Shown piece after piece: positions 10,196 to 35,178 of a stretch of DNA of 64,000 nt. Numbering within the stretch: the first letter of the stretch is position 1; every line of letters begins with the position of its first letter. Below the pieces are notes generated by a model that saw only the letters and a program-made list of their open reading frames with translations, was not told where the DNA came from and ran no database searches. This stretch comes from Streptomyces vietnamensis (GTDB taxonomy: Bacteria; Actinomycetota; Actinomycetes; Streptomycetales; Streptomycetaceae), in NCBI RefSeq assembly GCF_000830005.1, contig NZ_CP010407.1, positions 6,080,001 through 6,144,000 on the forward strand. Reading direction: 5' to 3'. The position numbers were made by a program, and so were the translations under genes.

Positions 10196-10283
10196 CCCCC
10201 TGCGCCCGCCACCCGCCCCCGCTGCGGGCGGCGCCCGCCGGGGCGATGCCCCCGCCGCCCCGTTGTGGGCCTGCGCCCCGCCC

Positions 10284-10488
10284 GTTGTGGGCAATCGTCC
10301 CGCAGGGCGGGACGGGTGGGCACAACGGACCCGCGCCCTGCCGGCGCCAGAGGCTTCCGCGCCCGAACCCGCACCGGGAGCGCGCCGCGGCGGTGGTGCG
10401 GGTCCAGGCGCGAAACGCCTGGGCCCGGCTGGGGGCGCCGTCCCGTGTGCCCACCCGTCCCGCCCAGCGGGACGATTGCCCACACGGG
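10284..10488. repeat. Nested inverted-repeat element, copy A
   Basis: About 205 bp. The left arm contains GTTGTGGGCAATCGTCCCGC and ends TGGGCACAAC; the right arm is its approximate reverse complement. Each arm is itself a hairpin (GTCCCGC with GCGGGAC). The central part is a second imperfect inverted repeat centred on GAACCCGCACC and GGTGCGGGTCC. On its right flank lie several copies of a GGCCCACACGGCGG-type unit, reaching about 10620. The same flank appears on the left of copy C in the opposite orientation. The whole 10196-10673 interval between genes is occupied by this material and no gene is seen in it. Confidence 0.85.
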
Positions 10489-10673
10489 CGCGGGCGAAGG
10501 CCCAGCCGGCCGCGGGCCCACACGGCGGCGGGGCACCGCCCAGCACGGGCGCTGGCCCACAGGAGGCGGGGCGCGGGCCCGCACTGGGGCGCAGGCCCGC
10601 ACCAGGGCGCGGCCCCCCGCGGTGCCGTCCACGTGGCGGACCGGACCCCCGGCGCGCCGCAGGCCGCGGCAGG

Positions 10674-11918
10674 ATGACCCCCGTGACCGTCATCGACATC
10701 CCCGGCTCCAAGTCCGTCACCGCCCGCGCGCTCTTCCTCGCCGCCGCCGCGGAGGGCACGACGACCCTCCTGCGCCCGCTCGTCTCCGACGACACGGAGG
10801 GTTTCGCCGAAGGCCTCGCCGCTCTCGGGTATGCCGTCCGCCGCGAGCCCGGTGCCTGGCACATCGAGGGCCGTCCGGCCGGTCCGGGGACGGACGAGGC
10901 CGACGTGTACTGCCGTGACGGCGCCACGACCGCCCGCTTCCTGCCGACCCTCGTCGCCGCCGGCCACGGCACGTACCGCTTCGACGCCTCCGCGCAGATG
11001 CGGCGACGACCCCTCGCCCCCCTGACGACCGCGTTGCGCACCCTGGGTGTCGATCTGCGGCACGGCGAGAAGGAGGGCCATCACCCGCTCTCCGTCCACG
11101 CCGCCGGGGTCAAGGGCGGGGCGCTCACGCTCGACGCCGGGCAGTCCTCCCAGTACCTGACCGCGCTGCTCATGCTGGGCCCGCTCACCGCCGAGGGCCT
11201 CGACATCACCGTCACGGACCTGGTCTCGGAGCCGTACGTCGAGATCACGCTCGCGATGATGCGGGCCTTCGGGGCCGAGGTCACCCGGGAGGGGCGTACG
11301 TACCGCGTCGCCCCCACCGGCTACCGGGCACGGACGTACGGCATCGAGCCCGACGCCTCCACCGCCAGCTACTTCTTCGCCGCCGCGGCCCTCCGGCCGG
11401 GCCGCTCCGTCACCGTCCCCGGCCTCGGGACCGGAGCCCTCCAGGGCGACCTGGCCTTCGTCGACGTGCTGCGCCGCATGGGCGCCGACGTCGAGATCAC
11501 CGACAGCGCCACCACCGTCCGCTCCACCGGGAGCCTGCGCGGACTCACCGTCAACATGCGGGACATCTCGGACACCATGCCGACCCTCGCCGCGATCGCG
11601 CCGTTCGCCGACGGCCCGGTCCGCATCGAGGACGTCGCCAACACCCGGGTCAAGGAGTGCGACCGGCTCGACGCCTGCGCGGAGAATCTGCGCCGTCTCG
11701 GGATCACCGTGCACACCGGTCCCGACTGGATCGAGATCCACCCCGGCACGCCCACCGGACCCGTCGAGATCGCCACCCACGGCGACCACCGGATCGTCAT
11801 GTCCTTCGCGGTCACGGCCCTCCGCACCCCGGGGATCACCTTCGACGACCCCGGCTGCGTGAAGAAGACGTTCCCCGACTTCCACCGGGTGTTCGACACG
11901 TTCGTCCGCACCCCGTGA
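10674..11918 (+). CDS. EPSP synthase-family enolpyruvyl transferase (AroA paralogue)
   Basis: Predicted 414 residues of the 3-phosphoshikimate 1-carboxyvinyltransferase fold. Conserved landmarks are PGSKSVTARALFLAAAA (substrate Lys-Ser-Arg), GQSSQYLTALLML, DASTASYFFAAAAL, VANTRVKECDRLDA, HGDHRIVMSFAV and KKTFPDFHRVF. Against E. coli AroA, the NAGTAMR loop reads DGATTAR and the Arg of GEPRMKERP is replaced by Gln (SAQMRRRP). Since the Arg contacts phosphoenolpyruvate in AroA, the substrate or kinetics may differ. It lies 34 bp upstream of dxr and is probably co-transcribed. A housekeeping AroA is expected elsewhere in Streptomyces, so this may be a paralogue. A GTG nine bases downstream is an alternative start. 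Confidence 0.82.
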   Translation: MTPVTVIDIPGSKSVTARALFLAAAAEGTTTLLRPLVSDDTEGFAEGLAALGYAVRREPGAWHIEGRPAGPGTDEADVYCRDGATTARFLPTLVAAGHGTYRFDASAQMRRRPLAPLTTALRTLGVDLRHGEKEGHHPLSVHAAGVKGGALTLDAGQSSQYLTALLMLGPLTAEGLDITVTDLVSEPYVEITLAMMRAFGAEVTREGRTYRVAPTGYRARTYGIEPDASTASYFFAAAALRPGRSVTVPGLGTGALQGDLAFVDVLRRMGADVEITDSATTVRSTGSLRGLTVNMRDISDTMPTLAAIAPFADGPVRIEDVANTRVKECDRLDACAENLRRLGITVHTGPDWIEIHPGTPTGPVEIATHGDHRIVMSFAVTALRTPGITFDDPGCVKKTFPDFHRVFDTFVRTP

Positions 11919-11952
11919 AGACCGCACGGTCTTTGCGGCAAGAATGGGGGGC

Positions 11953-13203
11953 ATGAGCGACCGCCCCTCTCCTCTCGCCGACCCGCACATCGCCTTCGAC
12001 GTGTCCGAAGGACGCCGGGACATCGTCGTCCTCGGCTCGACCGGGTCCATCGGCACCCAGGCCATCGACCTGGTGCTGCGCAACCCCGACCGCTTCCGGG
12101 TCACCGCCCTCGCCGCCTCCGGCGGCCGGATCGGGCTGCTCGCCGAGCAGGCGCACCGCCTGAAGGTCCGGACGGTCGCGGTCGCCCGCGAGGACGCGGT
12201 CGAGGAGCTGCGTACGGCCCTGAAGGCGCTGTACGGTTCCGAGCCCCTGCCCGAGCTCCTGGCGGGCCCGGACGCGGCCACCCAGGTCGCCGCCTCCCCG
12301 TGCCACACCGTCCTCAACGGCATCACCGGCTCCATCGGCCTCGCGCCCACCCTCGCCGCCCTCGAAGCGGGCCGCACCCTCGCCCTCGCCAACAAGGAGT
12401 CGCTGATCGTCGGCGGCCCCCTGGTGAAGGCGCTCGCCAAGCCGGGCCAGATCATCCCGGTCGACTCCGAGCACGCGGCCCTCTTCCAGGCGCTGGCCGC
12501 CGGCACCCGCGCCGACGTCCGCAAGCTGGTCGTCACGGCCTCCGGCGGCCCCTTCCGCGGCCGTACGCGCGAGCAGCTGGCCCATGTCACCCGCGAGGAC
12601 GCGCTGGCCCACCCGACCTGGGCGATGGGCCCGGTCATCACGATCAACAGCGCGACCCTGGTCAACAAGGGCCTGGAGGTCATCGAGGCCCACCTGCTCT
12701 ACGACATCCCGTTCGACCGCATCGAGGTCGTCGTCCACCCGCAGTCGTACGTCCACTCGATGGTCGAGTTCACGGACGGCTCCACGCTCGCCCAGGCCAC
12801 CCCGCCGGACATGCGCGGCCCGATCGCCATCGGCATCGGCTGGCCCGAGCGGGTCCCGGACGCGGCCCCCGCCTTCGACTGGACCAAGGCCTCCACCTGG
12901 GAGTTCTTCCCGCTCGACACCGAGGCCTTCCCGTCCGTCGGCCTGGCCCGGCACGTGGGCGAGCTCGGCGGCACCGCCCCCGCCGTCTTCAACGCCGCGA
13001 ACGAGGAGTGCGTCGAGGCGTTTCTCGCCGGACGCCTGCCGTTCAACGGAATCATGGATACGGTCACTGCGGTCGTCACCGAGCACGGGAAGCCCGCCGA
13101 GGGAACTTCGCTCACGGTGTCGGACGTCCTCGAAGCGGAGACCTGGGCGCGCGCCCGGGCCCGAGAGCTCGCAGCGAAGGCAACAGCGGAGGCCCGCGCA
13201 TGA
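11953..13203 (+). CDS. dxr: 1-deoxy-D-xylulose 5-phosphate reductoisomerase
   Basis: Predicted 416 residues. It converts DXP to 2-C-methyl-D-erythritol 4-phosphate with NADPH, the committing step of the MEP isoprenoid pathway. The N-terminal NADPH motif [17 protein letters not shown], the catalytic-site runs [21 protein letters not shown] and [11 protein letters not shown], and [17 protein letters not shown] are all present, with [12 protein letters not shown] and NEECVEAFL further on. The ATG at 11953 is preceded by a G-rich ribosome site; another ATG nine bases earlier overlaps that site. The stop overlaps the start of the following protease gene (ATGA), so the two are translationally coupled. 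IspG of the same pathway follows. Confidence 0.96.
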
Positions 13204-14507
13204 CCGAAACGCTCCTGTACGCCCTGGGCATCGTGCTGTTCGCCCTCGGCCTCCTCGTCTCCATCGCGTGGCACGAGCTCGGCCACCTCTCCACGGCCAA
13301 GCTCTTCGGCATCCGCGTGCCGCAGTACATGGTCGGCTTCGGCCCCACCATCTGGTCGAGGAAGCGCGGCGACACCGAGTACGGCATCAAGGCCATCCCC
13401 GCCGGCGGCTACATCCGCATGATCGGCATGTTCCCGCCGGGCCAGGACGGCAGGATCGAGGCCCGCTCCACCTCGCCCTGGCGCTCCATGATCGAGGACG
13501 CCCGCGAGGCCTCGTACGAGGAGCTGGAGCCCGGCGACGAGACGCGGCTGTTCTACACGCGCAAGCCGTGGAAGCGCGTGATCGTGATGTTCGCCGGACC
13601 GTTCATGAACCTGGTCCTGGCGGCGGCGCTGTTCTTCGGCTCGATGATGACGCTGGGGATGCAGAAGGCGACGACCGAGGTCGCCGGCGTCCAGAAGTGC
13701 GTCCTCAAGCTGAGCGACAAGCGCCAGGAGTGCCGGCCGGGCGACCCCGTCTCCCCGGCGTTCAAGGCGGGCCTCAAGGACGGCGACAAGATCGTCGCCC
13801 TCGACGGCCGGCCGGTCTCCGACTGGGACACCCTCTCCGACCGCATCCGCACCACCCTCGGCCCGGCCACCCTCACCGTCGAGCGCGACGGACAGCGGGT
13901 CGACCTCCACCCGAACCTCGTCACCAACATGGTCGAGAAGAAGGACGCCGACGGGAACGTCGTCCGGCCGGTCCAGTACGTGCCCGCCGGCTACCTCGGC
14001 TTCCAGCCGAAGGCGGAGGTCAGGGCGCTCACGTTCGGCGAGACCACCGAGGAGATGACCACCCTCCTGGAGAACGGCGTCCATTCGGTGATCGCCCTGC
14101 CCGGCAAGATCCCCGGTCTCTGGGACGCCACCTTCGGCGACGGCAAGCGCGCCGAGGACTCGCCCGTCGGAGTGCTGGGCGCCGCCCGGATCACCGGCGA
14201 ACTCATGACCGTCGACGCCCCGCCCGAGCGGATCCTCGTCATGTTCATGAACCTGCTGGTGTACTTCAACGTCTCGCTGTTCCTGTTCAACATGCTCCCG
14301 CTGCTGCCGCTCGACGGCGGTCACATCGCGGGCGCCCTGTGGGAGTCCGTCCGCCGTCACGCGGCCCGGATCTTCAAGCGCCCCGACCCCGGCCCGTTCG
14401 ACGTGGCCAAGCTGATGCCCGCCGCCTACGTGGTGGCCGGTGTCTTCGTCTGCTTCACGCTGCTCGTCCTCGCCGCCGACATCGTCAACCCGGTGAAACT
14501 GACGTAG
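13200..14507 (+). CDS. RseP/Rip1-type site-2 intramembrane zinc metalloprotease
   Basis: Predicted 435 residues. Membrane segment one carries the zinc motif HELGH ([15 protein letters not shown]). A PDZ domain occupies the middle ([22 protein letters not shown]). The C-terminal membrane region has [18 protein letters not shown], the second zinc-ligand Asp. Site-2 proteases cut membrane-bound anti-sigma factors or other transmembrane substrates. The start ATG overlaps the dxr stop codon. Placement between dxr and ispG is the usual actinobacterial arrangement, although no functional link to isoprenoid synthesis is proved. Length and motif order match Rip1/RseP. Confidence 0.93.
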
Positions 14508-14513
14508 CTCCCA

Positions 14514-14545
14514 GGGGGGCCGGACCCGGTGGTGTCCGGCCCCCA
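14514..14545 (+). terminator. GC-rich hairpin between protease gene and ispG
   Basis: GGGGGCCGGAC and GTCCGGCCCCC pair around a short loop just after the protease stop codon. There is no T-tract, so it may be a weak terminator or an RNA processing site inside the dxr-ispG transcript. Confidence 0.6.
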
Positions 14546-14609
14546 CCCCCGGGGCGGTAACCTCGGAACCCTGAGCCCGCCGACGCACAACCTTGAGGTT
14601 GCACTTCAG

Positions 14610-15767
<1,158 letters not shown>

Positions 15768-15785
15768 CGCCCTCCGAAACCCCTC

Positions 15786-15824
15786 ACGAAGCCCCTCCAC
15801 CCCACCCGGTGGTAGGGGCTTCGT
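15786..15824 (+). terminator. Hairpin terminator after ispG
   Basis: ACGAAGCCCCT pairs perfectly with AGGGGCTTCGT around a loop of about 17 bases. No T-tract follows. Confidence 0.7.
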
Positions 15825-15900
15825 ACGCAGGACGGGCCCCGCCGAGGGGCACGGGGGTACAGTGCGGAGACCAGCAGATCCGTACCGTGAGGCCCCCCTC

Positions 15901-16746
15901 GTGCTGACAGAGACCACCACTCGGGTCCTCGAACCCGCCGACCTCGGCGCCGCACTCGCCGTCCTGGAGAGCGCCCCCGTCGAGAACGCCTTCGTGACCG
16001 CCCGCGTCCAGGTCGCAGGGCTCGACCCCTGGCGCCTCGGCGGCGAGATGTGGGGCTGGTACACCGAGGGCAGACTGCGCTCCCTCTGCTACTCCGGCGC
16101 CAACCTCGTCCCCATCTGCGCCACCCCCGAAGCCGTCCGCGCCTTCGCCGACCGGGCCCGCAGGATCGGCCGCCGCTGCTCCTCGATCGTCGGCCCCGCC
16201 GAGGCCACCGGCGAGCTGTGGCGGCTCCTGGAGCCCAGCTGGGGCCCCGCCAGGGACGTCCGCGCCCACCAGCCGCTGATGGTCGCCGAGGAGCCCTCCG
16301 CCACCGTCACGCCCGATCCGCTGGTGCGCCGCGTCCGCAAGGACGAGATGGAGGTGATCATGCCCGCCTGCGTGGCCATGTTCACCGAGGAGGTCGGCAT
16401 CTCCCCGCTCGCCAACGACGGCGGACTGCTCTACCAGGCCCGCGTCGCCGAGCTCGTCGGCGCCGGCCGCTCCTTCGCCCGCATCGAGGACGGCAAGGTC
16501 GTCTTCAAGGCCGAGATCGGCGCCGCCACCCGCCAGGCCTGCCAGATCCAGGGCGTCTGGGTGGCCCCCGAGCACCGCGGCAAGGGCCTCTCCGAGACGG
16601 GCATGGCCGCCGTCCTCCGGTACGCCCTGGCCGACGTCGCCCCCGTCGTCAGCCTGTACGTCAACGACTTCAACACCCCGGCGAGGGCCGCGTACCGCCG
16701 CGTCGGCTTCCGCGAGACCGGCGCCTTCATGAGCGTGCTGTTCTGA
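15901..16746 (+). CDS. DUF4081 domain GNAT N-acetyltransferase
   Basis: Predicted 281 residues. The N-terminal half matches the DUF4081 pattern common in actinobacteria (PADLGAALAVLESAPVENAFV, LRSLCYSGANLVPIC). The C-terminal half is a GNAT fold with the acetyl-CoA loop VWVAPEHRGKGLSETGMAA and the late strand/helix VSLYVNDFNTPARAAYRRVGF. It should acetylate a small molecule or protein amine; target unknown. The GTG at 15901 has a weak GAGG ribosome site; an upstream in-frame ATG at 15862 precedes it without a better site. The gene is in its usual place between ispG and proS. Confidence 0.87.
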   Translation: MLTETTTRVLEPADLGAALAVLESAPVENAFVTARVQVAGLDPWRLGGEMWGWYTEGRLRSLCYSGANLVPICATPEAVRAFADRARRIGRRCSSIVGPAEATGELWRLLEPSWGPARDVRAHQPLMVAEEPSATVTPDPLVRRVRKDEMEVIMPACVAMFTEEVGISPLANDGGLLYQARVAELVGAGRSFARIEDGKVVFKAEIGAATRQACQIQGVWVAPEHRGKGLSETGMAAVLRYALADVAPVVSLYVNDFNTPARAAYRRVGFRETGAFMSVLF

Positions 16747-16788
16747 ACGTGCTGTTCGAGGGGGGCGGCCGCTTGTAGGGTGCGCCGC

Positions 16789-17334
16789 ATGGATGACGCA
16801 GAGGTCGAGATCGGTCCGGTCAATCTCGCGGCCCGGGTGGACGAGGCCCTCGCCGTGCAGGCGGTCGCCTTCGGCCTGGACGCGGGCGAGGTCGCCGTAC
16901 GCCGCCACATCGTGCTGCGCCACCTCCTCAGCCCCGGCGCCCGCGCCTACGGGGCCACCACGCCCGACGGGCGCCTCGTCGGCTTCGTGTACGGGATGCC
17001 CAACGACCGCACCCACTGGTGGTCCACCGTCGTCGAGACGTACCTGCGGGCCACCGGCACCGCCGACTGGCTCGACGACTCCTTCGTCATCACCGAACTC
17101 CACGTCCACCCCGACTTCCAGGGCCGGGGCGTGGGCCGCGCGCTGATCACCACCATCACCGACACGGCCGACGAGAAGCGCTCCATCCTCTCCGCGATCG
17201 ACACCGACTCCCCGGCCCGCGGCCTCTACCGCTCCCTCGGCTACGTCGACCTCGCCCGCCAGGTCCACTTCCCGAGCGCCCCCCGCCCGTACGCGGTGAT
17301 GGGCGCCCCGCTGCCGCTCAAGCGCCGGAACTGA
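16789..17334 (+). CDS. GNAT-family N-acetyltransferase
   Basis: Predicted 181 residues. It shows one GNAT domain: [27 protein letters not shown] in the first half, the acetyl-CoA binding loop [20 protein letters not shown], and the closing [22 protein letters not shown]. The start ATG has AGGG nine bases upstream. It follows the DUF4081 acetyltransferase by 42 bp on the same strand and precedes proS by 71 bp, so the three may share transcripts. The acceptor substrate is not predictable. Confidence 0.85.
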
Positions 17335-17405
17335 TTTCTCCTGCCAGGGGCGGCCCGGCTAACCTCGGGGCCATCACCGTCAGTCCCGGCAGGAGTACGA
17401 GAACC

Positions 17406-19109
17406 ATGGCCAACGCACCGGTCCAGCGCATGTCCCAGTTGATGGCGAAGACGCTGCGCGACGACCCGGCGGACGCCGAGGTCCTCAGCCACAAGCTCCT
17501 CGTCCGCGCCGGCTACGTCCGCCGCACCGCCGCCGGCATCTGGAGCTGGCTGCCCCTCGGCAAGAAGGTCCTCTCCAACATCGAGCGGATCGTCCGCGAG
17601 GAGATGGACGCCATCGGCGCGCAGGAGGTCACCCTGCCCGCGCTGCTGCCCCGTGAGCCGTACGAGGCGACCGGCCGCTGGGACGAGTACGGCGCCGAGC
17701 TCTTCCGCCTCCAGGACCGCAAGGGCGGCGACTACCTCCTCGGCCCGACGCACGAGGAGATCTTCACGCTCCTGGTCAAGGACCAGTGCTCGTCCTACAA
17801 GGACCTGCCGGTGATCCTCTACCAGATCCAGAACAAGTTCCGCGACGAGGCCCGCCCCCGCGCCGGCATCCTGCGCGGCCGCGAGTTCCTCATGAAGGAC
17901 TCGTACTCCTTCGACACGGAGGACGAGGGCCTCGCCCAGTCCTACGCCCTGCACCGCACGGCCTACCAGCGCGTCTTCGAGCGCCTCGGCCTCGACTACC
18001 GCATCGTCGCCGCCACCGCCGGCGCGATGGGCGGCTCGAAGTCCGAGGAGTTCCTCGCCCCGGCCGAGGCCGGCGAGGACACCTTCGCCGACTGCCCGAA
18101 CTGCGACTTCGCGGCGAACACCGAGGCGGTGTACCAGGCGGTGAAGCCGGTCGACGGCTCGGCCGTCCCGGCCGCCGAGGAGATCCCCACCCCCGACACC
18201 CCGACGATCGAGACCCTCGCGGCCTCCCTCGGCGTGCCGGCCTCCGCGACCCTCAAGAACCTCCTGGTGAAGGTCGACGGCGAGATCGTCGCCGTCGGCG
18301 TCCCCGGCGACCGCGAGGTCGACATGGACAAGGTCGAGGAGCACTTCGGCCCGACGGCCACGGTCGAGCTGGTGACGGAGGAGGACTTCGCGGTCCGCCC
18401 CGACCTGGTCCGCGGCTACGTCGGCCCGCAGGGCCTGGAGAAGGTCAAGTACATCGCCGACCCGCGCGTGGCCCCCGGCACCGCCTGGATCACCGGCGCC
18501 AACAAGGACGGCATGCACGCGAAGAACGTCGTCGCGGGCCGTGACTTCGAGGTCGAGGAGTACGTCGACGTCGTCGTCGTCCAGGAGGGCGACCCGTGCC
18601 CCAAGTGCGGCACCGGCCTCAAGCTGGACCGCGCGATCGAGATCGGCCACATCTTCCAGCTCGGCCGCAAGTACGCGGACGCGCTCAAGCTCGACGTCCT
18701 CGGCCAGAACGGCAAGCCGGTCCGCGTGACCATGGGCTCGTACGGCATCGGCGTCTCGCGCGCGGTCGCGGCGCTGGCCGAGCAGACGGCCGACGAGAAG
18801 GGCCTGTGCTGGCCGGCGGAGGTCGCCCCGGCGGACGTCCACGTCGTCGCCGCCGGCAAGGCCCTCCAGACGGAACTGGCCCTCGAGGTCTCGGAGAAGC
18901 TCTCCGCGGCCGGCCTCCGCGTCTTGGTCGACGACCGCGCGGGCGTCTCCCCGGGCGTCAAGTTCACCGACGCGGAGCTCATGGGCGTCCCGAAGATCCT
19001 CGTCGCGGGCCGCCGCTCGGGCGAGGGCGTGGTGGAACTGAAGGACCGCCGCACGGGTGAGCGCGAGGAACTGACGGTCGACGAGGCCCTGACCCGCCTG
19101 ACGGCCTAA
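17406..19109 (+). CDS. proS: Prolyl-tRNA synthetase
   Basis: Predicted 567 residues, the bacterial ProS type with an inserted editing domain. It charges tRNA-Pro with proline. Class II motifs are visible: motif 1 near [20 protein letters not shown], motif 2 [26 protein letters not shown], and motif 3 [18 protein letters not shown]. Between motifs 2 and 3 lies a YbaK-like editing domain ([31 protein letters not shown]). A C-terminal anticodon-binding domain follows ([26 protein letters not shown]). AGGAG precedes ATG 17406. No T-box or leader structure is apparent upstream. Confidence 0.97.
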
Positions 19110-19193
19110 CCCCACCGGGCCAACCCCCACCCGCCCCGCCCCACGCGGGCGCACCCCCCTGGGCGGCGCGCCCGCCCGGGCGGTGCGCACCGC

Positions 19194-19397
19194 CGTGTGG
19201 GCAATCGTCCCGCAGGGCGGGACGGGTGGGCACACGGGACGGCGCCCCCAGCCGGGCCTAGGCTCCCGCGCCCTGACCCGCACCACCAGCGACGGTGCAC
19301 GGGGTGCGGGTTCGGACGCGGGAGCCTCTGGCGCCGGCAAGGGCGCCGTCCGTTGTGCCCACCCGTTCCGCCCCGGCGGAACGATTGCCCACAACGG
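19194..19397. repeat. Nested inverted-repeat element, copy B
   Basis: About 204 bp between the convergent proS and slipin genes. The left arm begins GTGTGGGCAATCGTCCCGC; the right arm ends GCGGAACGATTGCCCACAAC. The left-arm hairpin is GTCCCGC/GCGGGAC while the right-arm hairpin is GTTCCGC/GCGGAAC, a paired change that keeps the stem. The centre has CCTAGG and a second inverted repeat (GACCCGCACC with GGTGCGGGTT). Flanking units of a GGCCACAACCCGG type extend to about 19500. No gene is seen in 19110-19523. Confidence 0.88.
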
Positions 19398-19523
19398 CGG
19401 GGCGACGGGGGTCACAACCCGGCCCCACGAGGGCGTGGCCCGCAACGGTCTGGGAGGGCGCGGGCCACAACCCGGTGCGGCGCGGCCCGCAAGACGGTCC
19501 GGCAAGCGCAGGTCCGGTAGGGG

Positions 19524-20462
19524 TCAGGTTTCGTTTTCGTGGGGGGTCGGTTCGACCGACGGGCCCGTCAGGTCCTCGATCGCCTCCTCCGCCGCCGCCC
19601 GGCCCTTCAGGTACGCCTCGCTCAGCGGCAGTGGCAGCGGCATTTGCGCCCCCGCCCCGGAAGCCGCCCCGGAATCCGCCCCAGACTCCGCCGCAGCCGC
19701 CGCCGGCGTCGCCCGCTCCAGGAACCGCAGCAGTTCCACCGGAATCGGCAGGACCAGCGTCGAGTTCTTCTCGGCGGACACCGCCATCACCGTCTGCAGC
19801 AGCCGGAGCTGAAGGGCGGCCGGCTCCGTCGACATCACGCCCGCCGCCTCCGCCAGCTTCTTCGAGGCCTGGAGCTCCGCGTCCGCGTTGATCACCCGCG
19901 CCCGCCGCTCCCGGTCCGCCTCCGCCTGCCGGGCCATCGAGCGCTTCATCGTCTCGGGCAGCGACACGTCCTTGATCTCGACCCGGTCGATGGCGACGCC
20001 CCAGCCCATCGCGGGGCTGTCGAGCATCAGTTCCAGGCCCTGGTTGAGCTTCTCCCGGTTGGACAGCAGGTCGTCGAGGTCGCTCTTGCCGATGATCGAC
20101 CGCAGCGAGGTCTGCGCCATCTGCGAGACCGCGAACTTGTAGTCCTCGACCCGTACCACCGCGTCCGCCGCGTCGACGACCTTGAAGTACACGACCGCGT
20201 CCACCCGTACCGTCACGTTGTCCCGGGTGATGCCCTCCTGGGCGGGCACGGGCATCGTGACGATCTGCATGTTCACCTTGTGCAGGCGGTCGACGATCGG
20301 GACGATCATCGTGAATCCCGGCGCCCGCACGTCGCCGAGCAGCCGACCGAAGCGGAAGACGACGCCTCGCTCGTACTGCTTCACGACCCGCGCCGCCGCG
20401 CCCGCGTATACGGCGATCGCCGCAGCCGCGCCGGCCACAGCCATCAGCACTTCTTCGATCAT
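19524..20462 (-). CDS. Slipin (SPFH/Band 7 protein)
   Basis: Predicted 312 residues. One N-terminal membrane segment (VLMAVAGAAAAIAVYAGAA) is followed by an SPFH domain with the slipin signature YERGVVFRFGRLLGDVRAPG, then MPVPAQEGITRDNVTVRVDAVVYFKV. A coiled helix rich in Ala/Glu/Arg (RQAEADRERRARVINADAEL) completes the domain. Slipins form membrane-associated oligomers. The usual NfeD partner is not adjacent. The ATG at 20462 has AGGGGG upstream; a GTG one codon earlier is less likely. It is the last gene of a minus-strand set with the pseudokinase-like, ferritin-like and lipoprotein genes. Confidence 0.88.
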   Translation of the reverse strand: MIEEVLMAVAGAAAAIAVYAGAAARVVKQYERGVVFRFGRLLGDVRAPGFTMIVPIVDRLHKVNMQIVTMPVPAQEGITRDNVTVRVDAVVYFKVVDAADAVVRVEDYKFAVSQMAQTSLRSIIGKSDLDDLLSNREKLNQGLELMLDSPAMGWGVAIDRVEIKDVSLPETMKRSMARQAEADRERRARVINADAELQASKKLAEAAGVMSTEPAALQLRLLQTVMAVSAEKNSTLVLPIPVELLRFLERATPAAAAAESGADSGAASGAGAQMPLPLPLSEAYLKGRAAAEEAIEDLTGPSVEPTPHENET

Positions 20463-20507
20463 CACGGCCCCCTGGATTGAGCCGAACGGTACAAAAAGGG
20501 TATTCCC

Positions 20508-24603: not shown

Positions 24604-24607
24604 CGAC

Positions 24608-24641: not shown

Positions 24642-27728
<3,087 letters not shown>

Positions 27729-27870
27729 CGCGTAGGGCTGCGTCCGGGGCCGGTCGGCGGAAGTATTTCCGTCGATCGGCCCCGGCCGTTGCGTGTACGG
27801 TTCTGGTGTCCCTGCCAAGCGACGGCGTGGCAGGCCACCGAACCCGAACCGGCGGGACATCCGGCACCGC

Positions 27871-28164
27871 ATGTACGTGGGGACTCTGTCCTTCGACCTG
27901 CTCCTCGGCGACGTTCATTCGTTGAAGGAGAAACGCTCCGTCGTCCGGCCCATCGTCGCCGAGCTCCAGCGCAAGTTCTCCGTGAGCGCGGCGGAAGTGG
28001 GCGACCAGGACCTTCACCGCAGGGCCCGGCTGGGCGTCGCGCTGGTGTCCGGGGACCACGGATTCGTATCGGACGTGCTCGACCGCTGTGAGCGGCTCGT
28101 GGCCGCGCGTCCGGAGGTGGAACTCCTTTCGGTACGCCGAAGGCTCCACACTGATGAAGACTGA
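27871..28164 (+). CDS. DUF503 domain protein (YlxP-like)
   Basis: Predicted 97 residues. It matches the DUF503/YlxP family: MYVGTLSFDLLLGDVHSLKEKRS opens the domain, and RKFSVSAAEVGDQDLHRRARLG and VDxxSxHGF-like GDHGFVSDVLDRC follow. The family nearly always sits beside infB and rbfA and is thought to relate to ribosome function, though its biochemistry is unknown. The ATG at 27871 begins the family's first strand; the upstream GTG at 27793 would add a basic stretch not seen in relatives. Confidence 0.85.
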   Translation: MYVGTLSFDLLLGDVHSLKEKRSVVRPIVAELQRKFSVSAAEVGDQDLHRRARLGVALVSGDHGFVSDVLDRCERLVAARPEVELLSVRRRLHTDED

Positions 28165-28194
28165 TTTGAGCAAGGCAAAGAAGGAGAAGGACCA

Positions 28195-28635
28195 GTGGCC
28201 GACAACGCGCGGGCGAAGAAGCTGGCAGACCTCATCCGGGAGGTGGTCGCCGAGAAGCTGCAGCGCGGCATCAAGGACCCCCGCCTGGGTACGCACGTGA
28301 CCATCACGGACACCCGCGTCACCGGTGACCTGCGGGAGGCCACGGTCTTCTACACGGTCTACGGCGACGACGAGGAGCGCGCGAGCGCCGCGGCGGGCCT
28401 GGAGAGCGCCAAGGGCATCCTCCGTTCGGCCGTGGGCCGGGCGGCGGGGACCAAGTTCACCCCGACCCTGACCTTCGTGGCCGACGCCCTCCCGGAGAAC
28501 GCCCGCACCATCGAGGACCTCCTCGACAAGGCGCGCGCCTCCGACGCCCAGGTGCGTCAGGCCTCCTCGGGCGCCACCTTCGCGGGTGACGCCGACCCCT
28601 ACAAGAAGCAGGGCGAGGACGAAGCCGCCGAATGA
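28195..28635 (+). CDS. rbfA: 30S ribosome-binding factor A
   Basis: Predicted 146 residues. It assists late 16S rRNA maturation and cold adaptation. The KH-like fold is seen in KKLADLIREVVAEKLQRGIKDPR and VTITDTRVTGDLREATVFYTVYG, with RTIEDLLDKAR near the C-terminus. The start GTG at 28195 follows GGAGAAGG. Its stop overlaps the truB start (ATGA). Confidence 0.95.
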   Translation: MADNARAKKLADLIREVVAEKLQRGIKDPRLGTHVTITDTRVTGDLREATVFYTVYGDDEERASAAAGLESAKGILRSAVGRAAGTKFTPTLTFVADALPENARTIEDLLDKARASDAQVRQASSGATFAGDADPYKKQGEDEAAE

Positions 28636-29531
28636 GCACCTCGGGAAAGACGCCCGACGGGCTTGTCATCGTCGACAAGCCGTCGGGCTTCACTTCGCAC
28701 GACGTCGTGGCCAAGATGCGCGGGATCGCCAAGACCCGCCGCGTCGGCCACGCCGGCACGCTCGACCCCATGGCCACGGGCGTCCTCGTCCTCGGCGTGG
28801 AGCGGGCGACCAAGCTCCTCGGTCACCTCGCGCTGACCGAGAAGGAGTACCTGGGCACCATCCGCCTGGGCCAGACGACGATCACCGACGACGCCGAGGG
28901 CGAGATCACGGCGTCGGTCGACGCTTCGAAGGTCACCCGCGAGCAGATCGACGCCGGCGTCGCCGAGCTGACCGGCGACATCATGCAGGTCCCGTCGAAG
29001 GTCTCCGCGATCAAGATCGACGGCAAGCGGTCGTACGCGCGCGTGCGCGGCGGCGAGGAGTTCGAGATCCCGGCCCGCCCGGTCACCGTCTCCTCCTTCC
29101 GCGTGTACGACGTCCGCGAGGAGACCGCCGAGGACGGCACGCCCGTCGTCGACCTGGTCGTCTCGGTGGTCTGCTCCTCCGGTACGTACATCCGGGCGCT
29201 CGCCCGGGACCTCGGCGCCGGACTCGGCGTGGGCGGCCACCTGACCGCACTGCGCCGCACCCGGGTCGGCCCGTACAAGCTGGACTCGGCCAGGACCCTG
29301 GACCAGCTCCAGGAGGAGCTCACGGTCATGCCGGTCGCCGACGCGGCCGCGGCGGCGTTCCCGCGCTGGGACGTCGACGAGAAGCGGGCCAGGCTGCTGC
29401 TCAACGGCGTCCGCCTGGAGATGCCGGAGTACCCGAAGGGGCCCGTCGCGGTCTACGGGCCCGAGGGGAAGCTGCTCGCGCTGGTCGAGGACCAGCGGGG
29501 CAAGGCGAAGAGCCTCGCCGTCTTCGGCTGA
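28632..29531 (+). CDS. truB: tRNA pseudouridine(55) synthase
   Basis: Predicted 299 residues. It makes pseudouridine 55 in the T-loop of tRNAs. Motifs are VDKPSGFTSHDVVAKMR at the N-terminus, the catalytic loop HAGTLDPMATGVLVLGVERATK with the nucleophilic Asp, and VVCSSGTYIRALARDLG. A C-terminal PUA-type domain follows. It is the last gene of the rimP-rbfA-truB operon. The ATG overlaps the rbfA stop, and a long palindromic terminator follows. Confidence 0.96.
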   Translation: MSTSGKTPDGLVIVDKPSGFTSHDVVAKMRGIAKTRRVGHAGTLDPMATGVLVLGVERATKLLGHLALTEKEYLGTIRLGQTTITDDAEGEITASVDASKVTREQIDAGVAELTGDIMQVPSKVSAIKIDGKRSYARVRGGEEFEIPARPVTVSSFRVYDVREETAEDGTPVVDLVVSVVCSSGTYIRALARDLGAGLGVGGHLTALRRTRVGPYKLDSARTLDQLQEELTVMPVADAAAAAFPRWDVDEKRARLLLNGVRLEMPEYPKGPVAVYGPEGKLLALVEDQRGKAKSLAVFG

Positions 29532-29542
29532 GCCGACCTCCG

Positions 29543-29590
29543 AACGTGGGGCGGGCACGCGCGCGCGTGCCCGCCCCACGTTTCTTTCCC
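29543..29590 (+). terminator. Perfect 38-bp palindrome with T-tract after truB
   Basis: Arms ACGTGGGGCGGGCACGCGC and its exact complement form a perfect palindrome (29544-29581), followed by TTTCTTT. It likely ends the rimP-truB operon and insulates the large NTPase gene. Confidence 0.9.
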
Positions 29591-29739
29591 CCCTCGGTTT
29601 CCCCCGTGGAGTGTCTGTCCGGCGGAGCCGCCGAAATTCACCCCATCAGGGAGGCGCTCGGAGTGAACGGGGGAGTGGGAGGGGGCGCGTTTCCCCGCGA
29701 GCGCCTCCGGGTGATCACCGGCCGCCTACCGTCGACATC

Positions 29740-32700
29740 ATGGGAAGCGGGGACCTGGCGACGCTGGTGCGCATCTGCGATCCGGCGGGCCGGCCACGTG
29801 GCACCGGTTTCCTCGCCGACCACCACGGAACGGTCGTCACCAGCCACGAAGCCGTCGACGGGCTCAGCCGTGTCGTCCTGCACGCCCCCGGCGACCGGAG
29901 CTGGCTCGCCGAGGCCGAGGCCGTCACCCCGCTGCCCGAGAGCGGCCTCGCGCTCGTCCGGACCGAAGGGCTCGGCGGCCGCCCGCTGCCGCTCGCCACC
30001 CGGCCCGAGATCGAACCCGGCACCTACGTACGGATCGCCGCCCAGGGCTGGCGCGAGGCCCGTGTCCTCGGCCCCGCCTCCGTCACGTACACCGCAGCCG
30101 ACCGCTTCCACGCCCTCGCCGACGCCCTCGAACTGGCCATCGGCACCGAGGGCGCCGAGGCGCTCCGCCGCGGCGGACAGGCCGCCGGAGGACCCGTCCT
30201 CGACACCGTCACCGGCACCGTCCTCGCCGTCCTCGGCACCGCCCTGCGCGGCGACCGCCGGGCCGCCGGATACGCCGTGCCGCTCCGGCCCGCCGGGTAC
30301 GCCGTGCCGGTCCGGCCCTCCGGGCCACACCACGAGGGGCCCGCCGCCGTGCCGCCACGGCCCGCCGACCCGCTCACCGCCCTGCTGCGGCGCAACGCGG
30401 CCACCGTCCCCGCCTACGGGCCCGACCTCAACCTCGCCGCCATCCTGGAGCTCACCGCCACCTCCACCGGGCCCGTACGGGACCCCGGCCCCTGGCCCGA
30501 GCCCGTCGAACGCCCCGACTGCGTCCGCGAGTTCGCCCGCTTCACGGCCGGCCGTGCCCCCGTCCTCGCCCTCGTCGGCGCTCCCGGCACCGGCCGCACC
30601 ACCGCCCTCGCCGCGCTCTGCGCCCGCCGAGCCCGGGGCGCCGCACCCGCCCCCACCGTCCGGCTGCGCGGCGCCGACCTGCGCGCCGAGGACCGCTCGC
30701 TCGCCGACGCCGTCGGCCGCGCCCTGCACCAGGCCGGCCGGATCGTCGCCGCCTCCGGGGCGCTCGGCGACACCACGACCGCCACCCCGGAGCGGGCCGC
30801 CGCCCTCGCCCGGGACGCGGGCCGCCCGCTCCTCGTCGTCCTCGACGGCCCCGAGGAGATGCCGCCGCTCCTCGCCCACCGGCTCGCCGACTGGACGGCG
30901 GCCACGGAGCACTGGCTCCGCACCCACGGAGCCCGCCTCGTCACCGCCTGCCGCCCGGAGCACTGGGAACAGGCGGGCGCGCTGTACGGACCGGGGGCGC
31001 TGCACCGGCCGGCGGGGGACCCGGGCCGGGCGGTGGGGCCCGGCATCGGCCCGTCCGACCCGGGCCGGGCCTCGACCGGCACCGGCGACGCCATGCCCGC
31101 CGCGGTCGTCCTCGGGCCGTACACCGAGACGGAGGCCCGTGCCGTACGCGAGGGCTACGGGATCGGGGAGACGGACCTCGCCCCGGCGGACGCCCGGCAC
31201 CCGCTGGCCCTGCGGCTGCTCGCCGAGGTGCGGGCGGCGCTGCCGGGCGAGGTGCCGGGACGGCCCGGGCGCGAGGAGATCTTCACGGCCTACCTGGACC
31301 TGATGTGCCTGCGGACCGCCGTCAGGATCGCCGCGGGCTCGAGCCCCCTCCCCCGGGGGACGGCCGTCCGCCGCCTCGCCGCGCGCGTGACGGGCCGGCT
31401 GCACGAGGCGGCCCGCCGGTGCCTCGGCCCCGGACACGGCGTCCTCGACCGGGCCTCCTTCGAGGAGCTGTTCCCCTGGCGCGAGGGCTGGGCCCCGGCC
31501 GTCCTCACCGAGGGCCTCCTCGTCCCGGCGGGCTCCGGCTACCGCTTCGCCCACGAGGAACTCGCCGACTGGGTCCAGGCCGCCCACCTGGACCTGGACA
31601 CGGCCCTGGAGGCCCTGGTCCACGGAGCCCGGCCCACGGACCCGCCCCGCCCGCCCGAGGCACCCGCGCCGGACGACCCGCCCGCCCCGGGCCCGCCCGG
31701 CGGGCCCCCGAGGCCCAGCAGGGGCAGGCACGCCGCACCCGCGATGCCATCCGCGATGCCGCCCGGGCCCGGCATCCCGGCCGGTCCGGGCACCACCGGC
31801 GGGGCCGCCGGACCGGCCGGGCCCGGCGTTTCTGCCGGTCCCGGTGCCACCGGCGGGCTCGGCGGGGCGGTCGGTCCGGCCGGGCCCGCAGTCCCAGGCA
31901 GGCCGGGAGCCCCTGGTGGGGCTGGCCTCCCTGGTGCTCTTGGCGGGCAACGCGGGCCCGGCGCGGCCGCGGAGGCCGGTGAGCCCTGGGTGTCCGGTGC
32001 AGCCGACCGGTCCGGAGTGCCCGGCGTGGCCCATCGACCCGGCGCCACCGGCGCGCCCGGTCCGGGCGCCGGGGAACAGGCGGCGGGTGGGCCGTTGCCC
32101 GTGCCCCGGCACCGCATCGGGCCCGTGTCGCAGGCGCTGCTGCTGCTCCACCGGGAGCGGGGGGTCGCCGGGCTCGGGCCCCGGCTGGCCGGGCTCGTCG
32201 AGGCGCTCGGAGGGTTCGCCCGGGAGGGGCGGAACGGGGACGGGGCCTGGTGGGCCGCCCGGCTGCTCGGGGAGACCGTGCGGCGGGTGCCGGACCCGCG
32301 GCCGTACCTGCCCGTCCTGCGGCTCCTCGCCGATGAGGTCGGGGCCCACCCGGAACACCATCCGGTCTTCGCCTCCTTCGGGACCGCCTTCTGGCTGGGG
32401 CTGCCGGTCGGCGAGGACGAGCGGATCGATCTGCTGCGGCGGCTCGGCGAACGCAGCCTCGACGCCGTCGCGGCCCTGCTCGCCGCCGACCCCCGGGGCG
32501 TCCAGCCGCTCCTCTGCCGCTGGTTCGGCGACCCCCGGCCCCCCGTCGCCACCGCCGCCCAGGCCCTCCTGCACACCCACCGCGCGCTCGCCGTCGACGA
32601 CCTGTGCGAGGCGCTCGTCGCCACCGCCCACCCGCTCGCCGACGGCCTCCTCGCCGCGCTCGCCCGGGACGAGCCCTCCGCGCTCTGCCGGGCCGTCGAC

Positions 32701-33681
32701 CGCTGGGCCCACGACGACGGGCGCCCGGAGCGGCGCGTCGCGGCCGCCGCGTACGGACACCTGGTCGCCGGGCACGTCACCACCTCCGCCGACCGCGAGC
32801 TCCTCCGCTACGCCGCCCTCGCCCTGCTCGCCCGCCCCGGAGACCAGACCCTCCACGGCGCCGCCCTCGGGCTCCTCGTCCGCGACCCGCACACCCGCGC
32901 CCGCCACCTCCCGCGCGCCCTGGCCGAGCCCCAGGTGCCCGCCGCCGCGCTCGCCGAGGCACTCCCGACCCACCCCGAGGAGGTCCTCGCCGCCTTCCGG
33001 GCCCGCCTGGGCGCCACCGGCGAGACGGCCGCCGCCGCCCTGCGGGTCCTCGCCGAGGTCGACACGCCCGCCCTCGCCCGCCGGATCGCCGCCCTCGTCC
33101 GCGAGCACGCCGCCCGCCACCCCGAGGGCGCCCCGCTCGTCGCCGCCTTCGTCGACCGCCGCCTCGAGGACGGACCCGCCGCGAGGGCGATCCTCTTCCC
33201 GCTGGTCACAGGCCTGATCCGGGGTCGCCCCGCCCCGCTCCGACGCGCCCTCGCCCCCGTCCTCGCCGCCCCCGGCACCGGGGCCTCCCGCCATCTGCGG
33301 GCCGAGCTGCTCGACGTACTCCTGGAGCACGAGCGGTACGAGGCCGAGACCGGGGAGCTGACCGTCCTGGAGGCCCTCCTGCGGGCCGCCGCGGAGGGCG
33401 CGGAGCGGCGTACCGTGCCGCGCACCCGGGAGCTCACGTACCGCGTCGGCGCGCTGTGCGTCCGTACCCCCGCGGGCGCCTGGCGGCTCGACCGGACCCT
33501 CGCCGGGGCCGTCCGCGAGCTGCCCGCCTTCGCCGCGCTCCTCGCCGCCTGGACGGTCGCCGCCCCCGGCGAGTGGGTGCCGCTGCTCGGCCCGGAGACC
33601 CTCCAGGCGCTGCGGAGCCCCGGCACTGCCATGCCGATGCGGACCGACGGCCGTGGACATGGCAGTCTTAGACCTGCGTAA
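29740..33681 (+). CDS. Trypsin-fold / P-loop NTPase (STAND-like) giant protein
   Basis: Predicted 1313 residues. N-terminus (1-165): chymotrypsin-like fold with GTGFLADHHGTVVTSHEAV (His36) and GGPVLD, but the nucleophile position is Ala149 (QAAGGP) and the Asp region reads PESGLAL, so it is probably not a protease. Residues 260-480: P-loop NTPase with Walker A GAPGTGRTT (Arg286 in place of Lys) and Walker B LLVVLDGPEE. About 660-800: a Gly/Pro-rich, collagen-like linker. About 800-1300: Ala/Leu/Arg helical repeats, HEAT-like. The layout recalls STAND signalling proteins. It lies between truB and ribF and is followed closely by ribF. The function is unknown. Confidence 0.8.
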   Translation: MGSGDLATLVRICDPAGRPRGTGFLADHHGTVVTSHEAVDGLSRVVLHAPGDRSWLAEAEAVTPLPESGLALVRTEGLGGRPLPLATRPEIEPGTYVRIAAQGWREARVLGPASVTYTAADRFHALADALELAIGTEGAEALRRGGQAAGGPVLDTVTGTVLAVLGTALRGDRRAAGYAVPLRPAGYAVPVRPSGPHHEGPAAVPPRPADPLTALLRRNAATVPAYGPDLNLAAILELTATSTGPVRDPGPWPEPVERPDCVREFARFTAGRAPVLALVGAPGTGRTTALAALCARRARGAAPAPTVRLRGADLRAEDRSLADAVGRALHQAGRIVAASGALGDTTTATPERAAALARDAGRPLLVVLDGPEEMPPLLAHRLADWTAATEHWLRTHGARLVTACRPEHWEQAGALYGPGALHRPAGDPGRAVGPGIGPSDPGRASTGTGDAMPAAVVLGPYTETEARAVREGYGIGETDLAPADARHPLALRLLAEVRAALPGEVPGRPGREEIFTAYLDLMCLRTAVRIAAGSSPLPRGTAVRRLAARVTGRLHEAARRCLGPGHGVLDRASFEELFPWREGWAPAVLTEGLLVPAGSGYRFAHEELADWVQAAHLDLDTALEALVHGARPTDPPRPPEAPAPDDPPAPGPPGGPPRPSRGRHAAPAMPSAMPPGPGIPAGPGTTGGAAGPAGPGVSAGPGATGGLGGAVGPAGPAVPGRPGAPGGAGLPGALGGQRGPGAAAEAGEPWVSGAADRSGVPGVAHRPGATGAPGPGAGEQAAGGPLPVPRHRIGPVSQALLLLHRERGVAGLGPRLAGLVEALGGFAREGRNGDGAWWAARLLGETVRRVPDPRPYLPVLRLLADEVGAHPEHHPVFASFGTAFWLGLPVGEDERIDLLRRLGERSLDAVAALLAADPRGVQPLLCRWFGDPRPPVATAAQALLHTHRALAVDDLCEALVATAHPLADGLLAALARDEPSALCRAVDRWAHDDGRPERRVAAAAYGHLVAGHVTTSADRELLRYAALALLARPGDQTLHGAALGLLVRDPHTRARHLPRALAEPQVPAAALAEALPTHPEEVLAAFRARLGATGETAAAALRVLAEVDTPALARRIAALVREHAARHPEGAPLVAAFVDRRLEDGPAARAILFPLVTGLIRGRPAPLRRALAPVLAAPGTGASRHLRAELLDVLLEHERYEAETGELTVLEALLRAAAEGAERRTVPRTRELTYRVGALCVRTPAGAWRLDRTLAGAVRELPAFAALLAAWTVAAPGEWVPLLGPETLQALRSPGTAMPMRTDGRGHGSLRPA

Positions 33682-33720
33682 AGGCGAACAGGGCGAACAG
33701 GCGGACGAGGAGCGGTCACA

Positions 33721-34674
33721 GTGCAGCGCTGGCGTGGCTTGGAGGACATCCCCCAGGACTGGGGACGCAGCGTCGTCACCATCGGCTCCTACGACGGGGT
33801 GCACCGCGGACACCAGCTGATCATCGGGCGTGCCGTCGAGCGCGCCCGGGAGCTGGGCGTCCCCTCCGTCGTCGTCACCTTCGACCCGCACCCCTCCGAG
33901 GTCGTGCGCCCCGGCAGCCACCCGCCGCTGCTCGCCCCGCACCACCGGCGTGCGGAGCTGATCGCGGAGCTCGGCGTGGACGCGGTGCTCGTGCTGCCGT
34001 TCACGGCGGAGTTCTCGCAACTCTCCCCGGCCGACTTCATCGTCAAGGTGCTCGTCGACAAGCTGCACGCGAAGGCCGTCATCGAGGGCCCCAACTTCCG
34101 CTTCGGGCACCGGGCCGCCGGCAACGTCGCCTTCCTCACCGAGCTCGGCGCCACCTACGACTACGAGGTCGAGGTCATCGACCTGTACGTCAGCGGGGCC
34201 GCCGGCGGCGGCCAGCCCTTCTCCTCCACCCTCACCCGCCGCCTCGTCGCCGAGGGCGACATGGCCGGCGCCGCCGAGATCCTCGGCCGCCCGCACCGGG
34301 TCGAGGGCATCGTCGTCCGCGGCGCGCAGCGCGGCCGCGAGCTCGGCTTCCCGACGGCCAACGTCGAGACCCTGCCGCACACGGCGATCCCGGCGGACGG
34401 CGTCTACGCGGGCTGGCTGACGGCCGCGGGGGAGCGGATGCCGGCGGCGATCTCGGTCGGCACGAACCCGCAGTTCGACGGCACGGAGCGGACGGTCGAG
34501 GCGTACGCGATCGACCGCGAGGGGCTCGACCTGTACGGGCTGCACGTGGCGGTGGACTTCCTGGCGTACGTGCGGGGCATGCTGAAGTTCGACACGTTGG
34601 ACGATCTGCTGCAGGCGATGGCGGCGGACGTGAAGCGCTGCCGCGAACTGACGGAAGAATACGACCGCACCTAA
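33721..34674 (+). CDS. ribF: Bifunctional riboflavin kinase / FAD synthetase
   Basis: Predicted 317 residues. It converts riboflavin to FMN and then FAD. The N-terminal adenylyltransferase half has the nucleotide motif VVTIGSYDGVHRGHQLII and the downstream FRFGHRAAGNVAFL. The C-terminal riboflavin-kinase half carries the diagnostic GRELGFPTANVE and GVYAGWL. The start GTG at 33721 follows AGGAG. It is 39 bp downstream of the large NTPase gene, and copy C of the inverted-repeat element follows. Confidence 0.96.
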   Translation: MQRWRGLEDIPQDWGRSVVTIGSYDGVHRGHQLIIGRAVERARELGVPSVVVTFDPHPSEVVRPGSHPPLLAPHHRRAELIAELGVDAVLVLPFTAEFSQLSPADFIVKVLVDKLHAKAVIEGPNFRFGHRAAGNVAFLTELGATYDYEVEVIDLYVSGAAGGGQPFSSTLTRRLVAEGDMAGAAEILGRPHRVEGIVVRGAQRGRELGFPTANVETLPHTAIPADGVYAGWLTAAGERMPAAISVGTNPQFDGTERTVEAYAIDREGLDLYGLHVAVDFLAYVRGMLKFDTLDDLLQAMAADVKRCRELTEEYDRT

Positions 34675-34826
34675 CGGCCCGCCCCGTGCGGGCCCACACC
34701 CTGCTGGGCTTCGCCCCCGCCCGTGCTGGGCGATGTCCTTCCGCCGCCCGCCGTGTGGCCCCGCGCCGGGGCGGGCGGTGCCCCGCCGCCGTGTGGGCCC
34801 GCGCCCCGGCTGGGCGTCGCCCCCCG

Positions 34827-35035
34827 CCGTGTGGGCAATCGTCCCGCTGGGGCGGGACGGGTGGGCACACGGGACGGTGCCCCCAGCCGGGCCTAGGCGT
34901 TCCGCGCCTGGACCCGCACCGACCGAGCGCCGTGCACGGGGTGCGGGTTCAGGCGCGGAAGCCTCTGGCGCCGGCAGGGCGCGGGTCCGTTGTGCCCACC
35001 CGTTCCGCCCCAGCGGAACGATTGCCCACAACGGG
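34827..35035. repeat. Nested inverted-repeat element, copy C
   Basis: About 209 bp, between the convergent ribF and oppF genes. Its left arm begins GTGTGGGCAATCGTCCCGC and its right arm ends GCGGAACGATTGCCCACAAC. The left arm hairpin is GTCCCGC/GCGGGAC, the right GTTCCGC/GCGGAAC, as in copy B. The centre carries CCTAGG and a second inverted repeat. The left flank (34681-34826) consists of GTGTGGGCC and GTGCTGGGC units and matches, inverted, the right flank of copy A. No gene is seen in 34675-35178. Confidence 0.88.
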
Positions 35036-35077
35036 GGCGGCATGGGGCGCCCGCAACGGAGGCGCCGTCCGGGCGGG

Positions 35078-35114
35078 TGGGCACCGCCCCAGCGGAACGA
35101 TTGCCCACAACGGG
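35078..35114. repeat. Isolated extra right arm of the inverted-repeat element
   Basis: GTGGGCACCGCCCCAGCGGAACGATTGCC is present here in outline as a partial second copy of the right arm, 40 bp after copy C. A further CCCACAACGG unit lies nearby. It indicates local duplication or partial loss of another element. Confidence 0.7.
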
Positions 35115-35178
35115 GCGGGCGACGCCCACAACGGCGGGGCGCCGCCCCGGCGGAGTGGCCGTCCGCGACGGGCCCGGA

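Follow-up and report, generated by a model that had tools for sequence, protein, structure and literature searches.

Organisation of three hairpin doublets in the window

The 64,000-nucleotide stretch of the Streptomyces vietnamensis chromosome analysed here (contig NZ_CP010407.1, positions 6,080,001 to 6,144,000 of the forward strand; 'the window', whose numbering we use) carries three copies – A, B and C – of a ~205-bp composite element, all located in gaps after stop codons. Copy B follows proS and copy C follows ribF, both between convergent genes, and copy A lies in a tandem gap; gene contexts come from a home-made gene caller, with proS, ribF and other genes named by eye from their translations. 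Each copy is an inverted doublet of one type-1 and one type-2 arm, and each arm, 45–48 nt long, is hairpin-forming. As argued below, the element is probably a non-autonomous repeat, spread by transposition-like copying, of the kind represented by REPINs (doublets of repetitive extragenic palindromes, REPs) and bacterial interspersed mosaic elements (BIMEs).

Read from the type-1 to the type-2 arm, copy A (10282–10488) lies on the minus strand, and copies B (19193–19397) and C (34827–35034) lie on the plus strand. The arms consist of two stems flanking a 6×6 internal loop (GGCAAT/GGTGGG): type-1 arms read CCGTGTG..GTCCCGC/GCGGGAC, and type-2 arms carry CCGTTGTG and usually GTTCCGC/GCGGAAC. The type-1 arms of A, B and C are located at 10443–10487 (minus strand; 75.0 bits for 10442–10488), 19193–19237 (plus; 67.8 bits for 19192–19238) and 34827–34872 (plus; 71.6 bits for 34826–34873), respectively, and the type-2 arms at 10282–10328 (plus; 75.7 bits), 19350–19397 (minus; 78.7 bits) and 34987–35034 (minus; 79.1 bits); the type-2 arm of copy A has the outer stem CCGTTGTG/CACAACGG, its inner stem being changed to GTCCCGC/GCGGGAC. 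Copy C is adjoined at its type-2 end by a decayed half-arm (region 35070–35120, minus strand), the 5' half of which is intact and the 3' half replaced. When up to 3 mismatches are allowed, the 17-nt core is found at seven sites in the window, namely the six arms and the half-arm (core 35092–35108), as compared to a mean of 1.63 in shuffled windows, none of 100 shuffles reaching seven. The original prediction had described three such copies in gene-free gaps after stops, two of them convergent, and was right on both counts, its coordinates being correct to within 1–2 bases. Its further idea that spurious open reading frames (ORFs) in the element may have been annotated as proteins found little support: the sole ORF searched, one of 182 aa over copy A, hit a single protein in the database (E 8e-5, 75% identity over 20%).

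Copy number and distribution

The original prediction hinged on further copies existing in this genome or in related ones, and both hold them. In the 9.15-Mb genome the core, at up to 2 mismatches, is present at 205 sites (102 + 103), as compared to 8 (4 + 4) for a reversed-pattern control, and the exact full-arm motif is found in 58 of 199 sampled genomes of the genus. Counts of this exact motif span 0 to 144 across the 199 genomes; the 144 of the genome under study are the highest (reversed control: 0). Judging nearness by proS identity (a proS match is present in 191 of the 199 genomes), we find the closest genomes, at 94–97% identity, to be G015, G143, G004, G162, G076, G185 and G098, with 3, 1, 5, 28, 0, 0 and 5 exact arms, respectively. 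The repeat has undergone a recent, strong multiplication in this lineage. A more distant species, G131, has 134 exact arms, and some of its doublets have a core spacing of ~150 nt versus ~180 nt, which suggests that doublets formed independently there.

Among one-genome-per-species contigs the exact motif occurs in at least 118 stretches, and all 80 titles among the matches listed are Streptomyces. The covariance model R1 (E≤0.01) matches 95 of the 199 genus genomes and leaves 104 without a match. A second model, R2, was built from 69 of the 72 named arms analysed below plus three window arms, without L200, L206 and L216, in which another repeat takes the place of the outer 3' strand. At E≤0.001, R2 matches 22 of 121 genomes (4 of 17 genera) in the family and 12 of 296 genomes class-wide, all in this genus (1 of 114 genera), these two scans having used stricter filters, by which weak matches may be lost. 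In the genomes sampled, the repeat is found only within one bacterial family. In many Streptomyces species the arm also occurs as a solo hairpin, and the G-type units of other species bear a one-sided ~45-nt 3' extension (GCGGCACCCCGC...).

Conserved arms, mosaic interiors and flanks

We surveyed the doublets in 864 kb, made up of the window and a further 800 kb of this genome, which hold 28 distinct doublets and 8 unpaired cores; two additional pairings are the same doublets recounted from a neighbouring half-arm. A type-1 arm is paired with a type-2 arm in 27 of 27 aligned doublets (the remaining one, L115, carries an insertion and was omitted), the arms are near-invariant, variant blocks make up a mosaic interior, and the consensus folds into one long hairpin. 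None of the 28 lies wholly inside a predicted gene, and 2 overlap one at the edge. As a separate observation, a second repeat (GGGGGTCCCCC..CTGCTCGAGCGAAGCCGAGAGCTTGGGGGA) is nested within the arms: all 4 copies of it seen in the 800-kb sample occupy an identical position in the arm. Its sites on this chromosome, in chromosomal numbering, are 2068405 (L100), 2237282 (L108), 2378368 (L115) and 1999843 (L096); it is also found at L074:17428–17517, in an arm of G098 and, in some named species, elsewhere in the unit.

The shared flank units that the original prediction had noticed in copies A and C are real. Degenerate GTGTGGGCC-type units lie outside the type-1 end of both copies (10489–10627 and 34737–34826, respectively), and CACAACCCGG/CGCAACGG-like units lie outside the type-2 end of copy B (19398–19490), all limits being set by eye; at copy A, sequence common with the relative G143 starts again near GCCGTCCACGTG. 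Of the 28 doublets, 16 have CCGTGTGG no more than 120 nt beyond the type-1 arm, and 14 have CCCACAAC in the type-2 flank. Fuzzy copies of one flank unit lie within 300 bp of an arm in 31 of 36 cases; since the reversed control is also near arms (7 of 7), composition contributes to this proximity.

The anatomy bears on two alternatives. The first is a miniature inverted-repeat transposable element (MITE) of a DDE-type insertion sequence, which the ~45-bp terminal inverted repeats and the ~205-bp size would suit. No target-site duplication of 3–10 nt was found above permutation in the 28 doublets (p 0.2 or more, with boundaries shifted by up to 11 nt either side), and the arms are themselves palindromic and occur solo in many species; we therefore disfavour this explanation and hold it to be highly unlikely. 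The second, our main rival, does away with a dedicated enzyme and invokes replication slippage at palindromes together with ectopic gene conversion among intergenic regions. It could account for the mosaic interiors, the degenerate related units in the flanks, the replacement of most of the intergenic segment, the lack of a target-site duplication, and the half-arms that lie just upstream of G-type units on the same strand (21 of 105, versus 1 downstream and 0 in the reversed control). It demands, however, a recipient of similar sequence, yet in most near relatives the junctions that hold copies A–C have no arm match (see below), and the constant type-1/type-2 doublet argues for copying of the whole unit. 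We regard this rival as unlikely, though a serious contender.

Selection on the folded arm

Folded as single DNA strands in both directions, the arms of copy B give z scores of −5.7 to −6.2; folded as RNA, copies B (both strands) and C (one strand) form one long hairpin (z −14 to −17). The original prediction also staked its case on base-pair compensation, which we examined by five measures in 72 distinct named arms (duplicates and one arm cut by a contig end were dropped). Standard pairs make up 95.8% of cells, and 85 cells show double changes, as compared to 25.3 in shuffles (0 of 500 as high), with relatedness of the arms inflating the shuffle tests. Sliding the partner strand by 1–3 columns reduces pairing to 23–51%. 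One inner pair, at which the search pattern left both positions free, is G-C in 52 arms, T-A in 11 and C-G in 9, and is never mispaired. The invariance of the internal loop and of most inner-stem bases is partly by construction, these positions being fixed in the motif by which the arms were chosen.

Other observations speak against selection on the fold: the numbers of pairs with a double change and with further pair types are not above shuffles (451 and 89 of 500 as high, respectively), 23 of the 72 arms lack pairing at the outermost position counted, and mispaired arms exist beyond the 72 (G022, L281 and, in this genome, L092). On balance, genus-wide selection on the fold is supported.

The same conclusion had originally been drawn from a C/T swap in the paired bases of copies B and C. 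The swap is real and selection holds genus-wide, but the argument from within the window fails: the C/T pair difference between arm types is seen throughout the 27 aligned doublets, and is one old fixed difference between arm types, not three events. Compensation from copies B and C alone was rejected on this ground. In copy A the pair is C/C because its type-2 arm departs from the others on both sides, and one further copy (L092:17997–18203) is altered on one side of the pair only.

Position relative to genes and a possible RNA role

The 28 doublets comprise 14 convergent, 13 tandem and 1 divergent, against 125, 403 and 125 gaps of these classes in the region, that is, an enrichment in convergent (p 0.0002) and a depletion in divergent gaps (p 0.03). 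Among solo arms, after removal of those lacking a called gene on one flank, of repeated entries for one site and of arms close to another arm, 124 could be classified: 45 in convergent, 68 in tandem and 5 in divergent gaps, with 6 inside predicted genes. Judged by the closest 3' end, sense arms number 70 and antisense arms 43, the sense excess residing in convergent gaps (33 vs 12), with tandem gaps near even (37 vs 31). The arm core lies within 30 nt of the stop codon in 26 of the 70 sense and 0 of the 43 antisense arms. We did not adopt this as an RNA-orientation signal at stop codons, since the one-sided ~45-nt extension of the unit can, as judged by eye, produce it. The position pattern fits avoidance of promoters and coding sequence.

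A bidirectional terminator had been among the roles originally put forward, and the hairpins might be kept mainly as RNA elements – bidirectional terminators or mRNA-stabilising 3'-end hairpins – with copies fixed for that role. The enrichment between convergent genes and near 3' ends, the compensatory changes in the arms and the sense excess with its cores close to stops are in keeping with it, as is the reported median distance of 66–76 nt between Streptomyces transcript ends and the upstream coding sequence (available text of PMC12207403). No T-rich tract was seen by eye 3' of the arms, where the sequence is GC-rich; because Streptomyces terminators often lack strong U-tracts according to the same text, a terminator role is still compatible with this. 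Telling against an RNA role, solo units occur in both orientations, nearly evenly so in tandem gaps; the sense arms hugging stops are explicable by the 3' extension; terminator-like hairpins persist beside some arms (e.g. at the G131 proS junction, by eye); U-G occurs in 10 of 360 cells of the five covarying pairs, which we judge few for an RNA helix; and over half of the genus genomes (the 104 of 199 mentioned above) have no R1 match. As the main reason why the hairpins are kept, this appears rather improbable, and the terminator function is better seen as a possible, secondary one; the two readings overlap, and our confidences in them are not mutually exclusive. Of the roles proposed at the outset, the non-autonomous mobile element is the best supported.

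Searching Rfam with the window returned a single match above the gathering threshold, an Actino-pnp RNA (RF01688; 57413–57472, plus strand, 61.2 bits), and no match to the arms; in four solo-arm loci there was one sub-gathering match (E 0.83, L169:6383–6452), away from the arm of that locus.

The same junctions in relatives

The original prediction proposed comparing occupied and empty sites. Relatives with both flanks aligned number 5 at site A, 7 at site B and 8 at site C, and the junctions are arm-free in most of them: at E≤0.01 the only aligned junction with arm matches is site A of G098, which holds a doublet with a different interior. In G131, a solo arm follows proS. Model R2 adds a marginal 21.6-bit match at site A of G004, and its other additions are likewise marginal. 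The gaps of relatives are mostly shorter than those of this genome, and the longer ones hold other DNA (~1 kb at site A and 4 kb at site C of G015; 3.7 kb at site C of G076). By parsimony, the simplest reading is that copies A–C were gained in this lineage. Separately, the site A gap of three relatives (L067, L069 and L063) contains a palindrome, CGTTCCGCCATGCGGAACG, with the arm's inner stem; this may be either an operator with no relation to the arm or a hairpin related to it.

Search for a mobiliser and weighing of the evidence

High copy number, a burst within the lineage, arm-free junctions and conserved ends with mosaic interiors make mobility the best-supported explanation. In such a scheme, the arms would be recognised as hairpins in single-stranded DNA (ssDNA), and an enzyme provided in trans would copy the inverted doublet whole into intergenic DNA, for the most part 3' of genes; selection against insertions into promoters and coding sequence would then shape the positions, and conversion between copies the mosaic interiors.

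Several observations weigh against this interpretation. No mobiliser was found: the Pfam search for Y1_Tnp (PF01797), the domain expected of a REP-associated tyrosine transposase (RAYT), was negative for this genome and positive for 66 of the 199 genus genomes. Y1 is present in 25 of 58 arm carriers versus 41 of 141 others (p 0.07) and in 4 of 16 genomes with 10 or more arms, and an arm (E≤1) was found at 0 of 20 Y1 loci fetched. Relatives carry more arms under the permissive model R1 than by exact motif (22 in G004, 19 in G098, 9 in G015, 8 in G143 and 5 in G076, with at least 30 in each of G162 and this genome), so that their contrast with this genome is partly divergence. The intergenic DNA at the compared junctions has largely diverged; exact insertion ends are uncertain, and absence in relatives could in principle reflect loss. 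Inside the long hairpin, compensation is seen at only 2 of the 73 pairs predicted, and one of these is disrupted in 8 of the 27 copies; we have rejected compensation as support for a single 205-nt hairpin. Finally, the degenerate related units in the flanks mean that the moving unit may exceed 205 bp.

With no Y1 match here, no significant association and no arms at the 20 Y1 loci fetched, we rejected a resident RAYT as the mobiliser: the mobiliser is not a resident Y1/RAYT enzyme, unless the burst was followed by loss of its gene or the Pfam search missed it. IS110 (PF01548), present in 6 of the 10 carriers and 9 of the 10 non-carriers selected for this comparison, led nowhere, and the search for Y2_Tnp (PF04986), with no matches anywhere, controls included, was uninformative. 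A TnpB-linked element that mobilises or cleaves at the arms is a further candidate: TnpB (PF07282) is found in 44 of 58 carriers versus 85 of 141 others, a weak excess (p 0.05 without phylogenetic correction), and this genome, with no Y1 match, has 7 matches, six chromosomal and one on the second contig. It is nevertheless missing from 14 of the 58 carriers, including G164 with its 22 arms, and only 3 of 20 loci fetched around PF07282 matches hold an arm, ~3–4 kb from the match; we give this candidate very little credence. Clustering the genes that neighbour arms revealed no transposase family by eye in the 25 clusters listed of 39. At one junction, between a hutU-like and an amidohydrolase gene (named by eye), arms occur in both orientations in several genomes (L175, L222, L238, L265, L275 and L281), which suggests either a hot spot of insertion or sites that were retained.

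Repeats of the REP type are widespread among bacteria, and RAYT transposases are credited with spreading them. More tentatively than mobility as such, at somewhat under an even chance, we propose that this is a REPIN-type family of Streptomycetaceae whose recent and strong expansion took place in a genome in which no RAYT is detectable. If so, either an enzyme not yet recognised or a repair or replication activity of the host would read the conserved internal loop in an ssDNA hairpin and copy inverted doublets into 3'-flanking intergenic DNA. The repeat family is structurally defined and belongs to a major antibiotic-producing group, and no RAYT was found in the genome with the highest copy number; REP spread without RAYT thereby becomes a directly testable question. 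In Streptomyces, such repeats may also have consequences for the assembly and annotation of genomes and for the 3' ends of transcripts.

Comparison with known repeat systems

The family was not found in Rfam or in the open-access literature searched, including the available texts of PMC1590033, PMC4681348 and PMC8269248 (most subscription journals lie beyond such a search); literature matches listed for the core strings and CGGGTGGGC look unrelated by title. Neither the word Streptomyces nor the word Actinobacteria turned up in the main text of PMC3733652 as available or in the available text of PMC6006769.

Judged by the part of PMC2817692 available, GTAG-type REPs are likewise high-copy intergenic imperfect palindromes that form inverted pairs. 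They have a GT(A/G)G head linked to RAYT; here, this head is absent at the foot of the window arms, no Y1 match accompanies the arms in this genome and none of the 20 Y1 loci holds an arm. Among the 105 G-type units of other species, 26 have TAG (as NTAG) right at the 5' side of the hairpin, recalling that head, as compared to 0–2 at other offsets; in 14 the tetranucleotide is GTAG. CGTC-type REPs, as described in the available text of PMC3733652, share with our element the lack of a dedicated transposase and the formation of dimers, mostly heterodimers in several CGTC families; five phyla are named there, Actinobacteria not among them. Unlike these, the window arms end in CCGTGTG or CCGTTGTG and their complements, with no CGTC tag. 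BIMEs (PMC2817692, as far as available) resemble the element in that REPs alternate in orientation within composite structures, and differ in sequence, in having shorter arms and in their binding proteins, none being known here.

Of the features that mark MITEs, terminal inverted repeats are present and a target-site duplication was not found. As for REPs and REPINs, we find a high-copy intergenic palindrome, inverted doublets with a less conserved spacer, and compensatory changes; we find neither a RAYT gene in the genome nor, among the 20 Y1 loci fetched, one flanked by the repeats, and for this reason file the element as REPIN-like and not as a RAYT REPIN. The REPINs of Pseudomonas fluorescens are REP doublets forming hairpins (available text of PMC3116915). 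Compensation in the spacer is common there and minimal here, and no RAYT was found in this genome; what the two have in common is inverted, conserved palindromic arms around a less conserved spacer, extragenic location, high copy number, a predicted large hairpin and a doublet proposed to be the unit that is copied.

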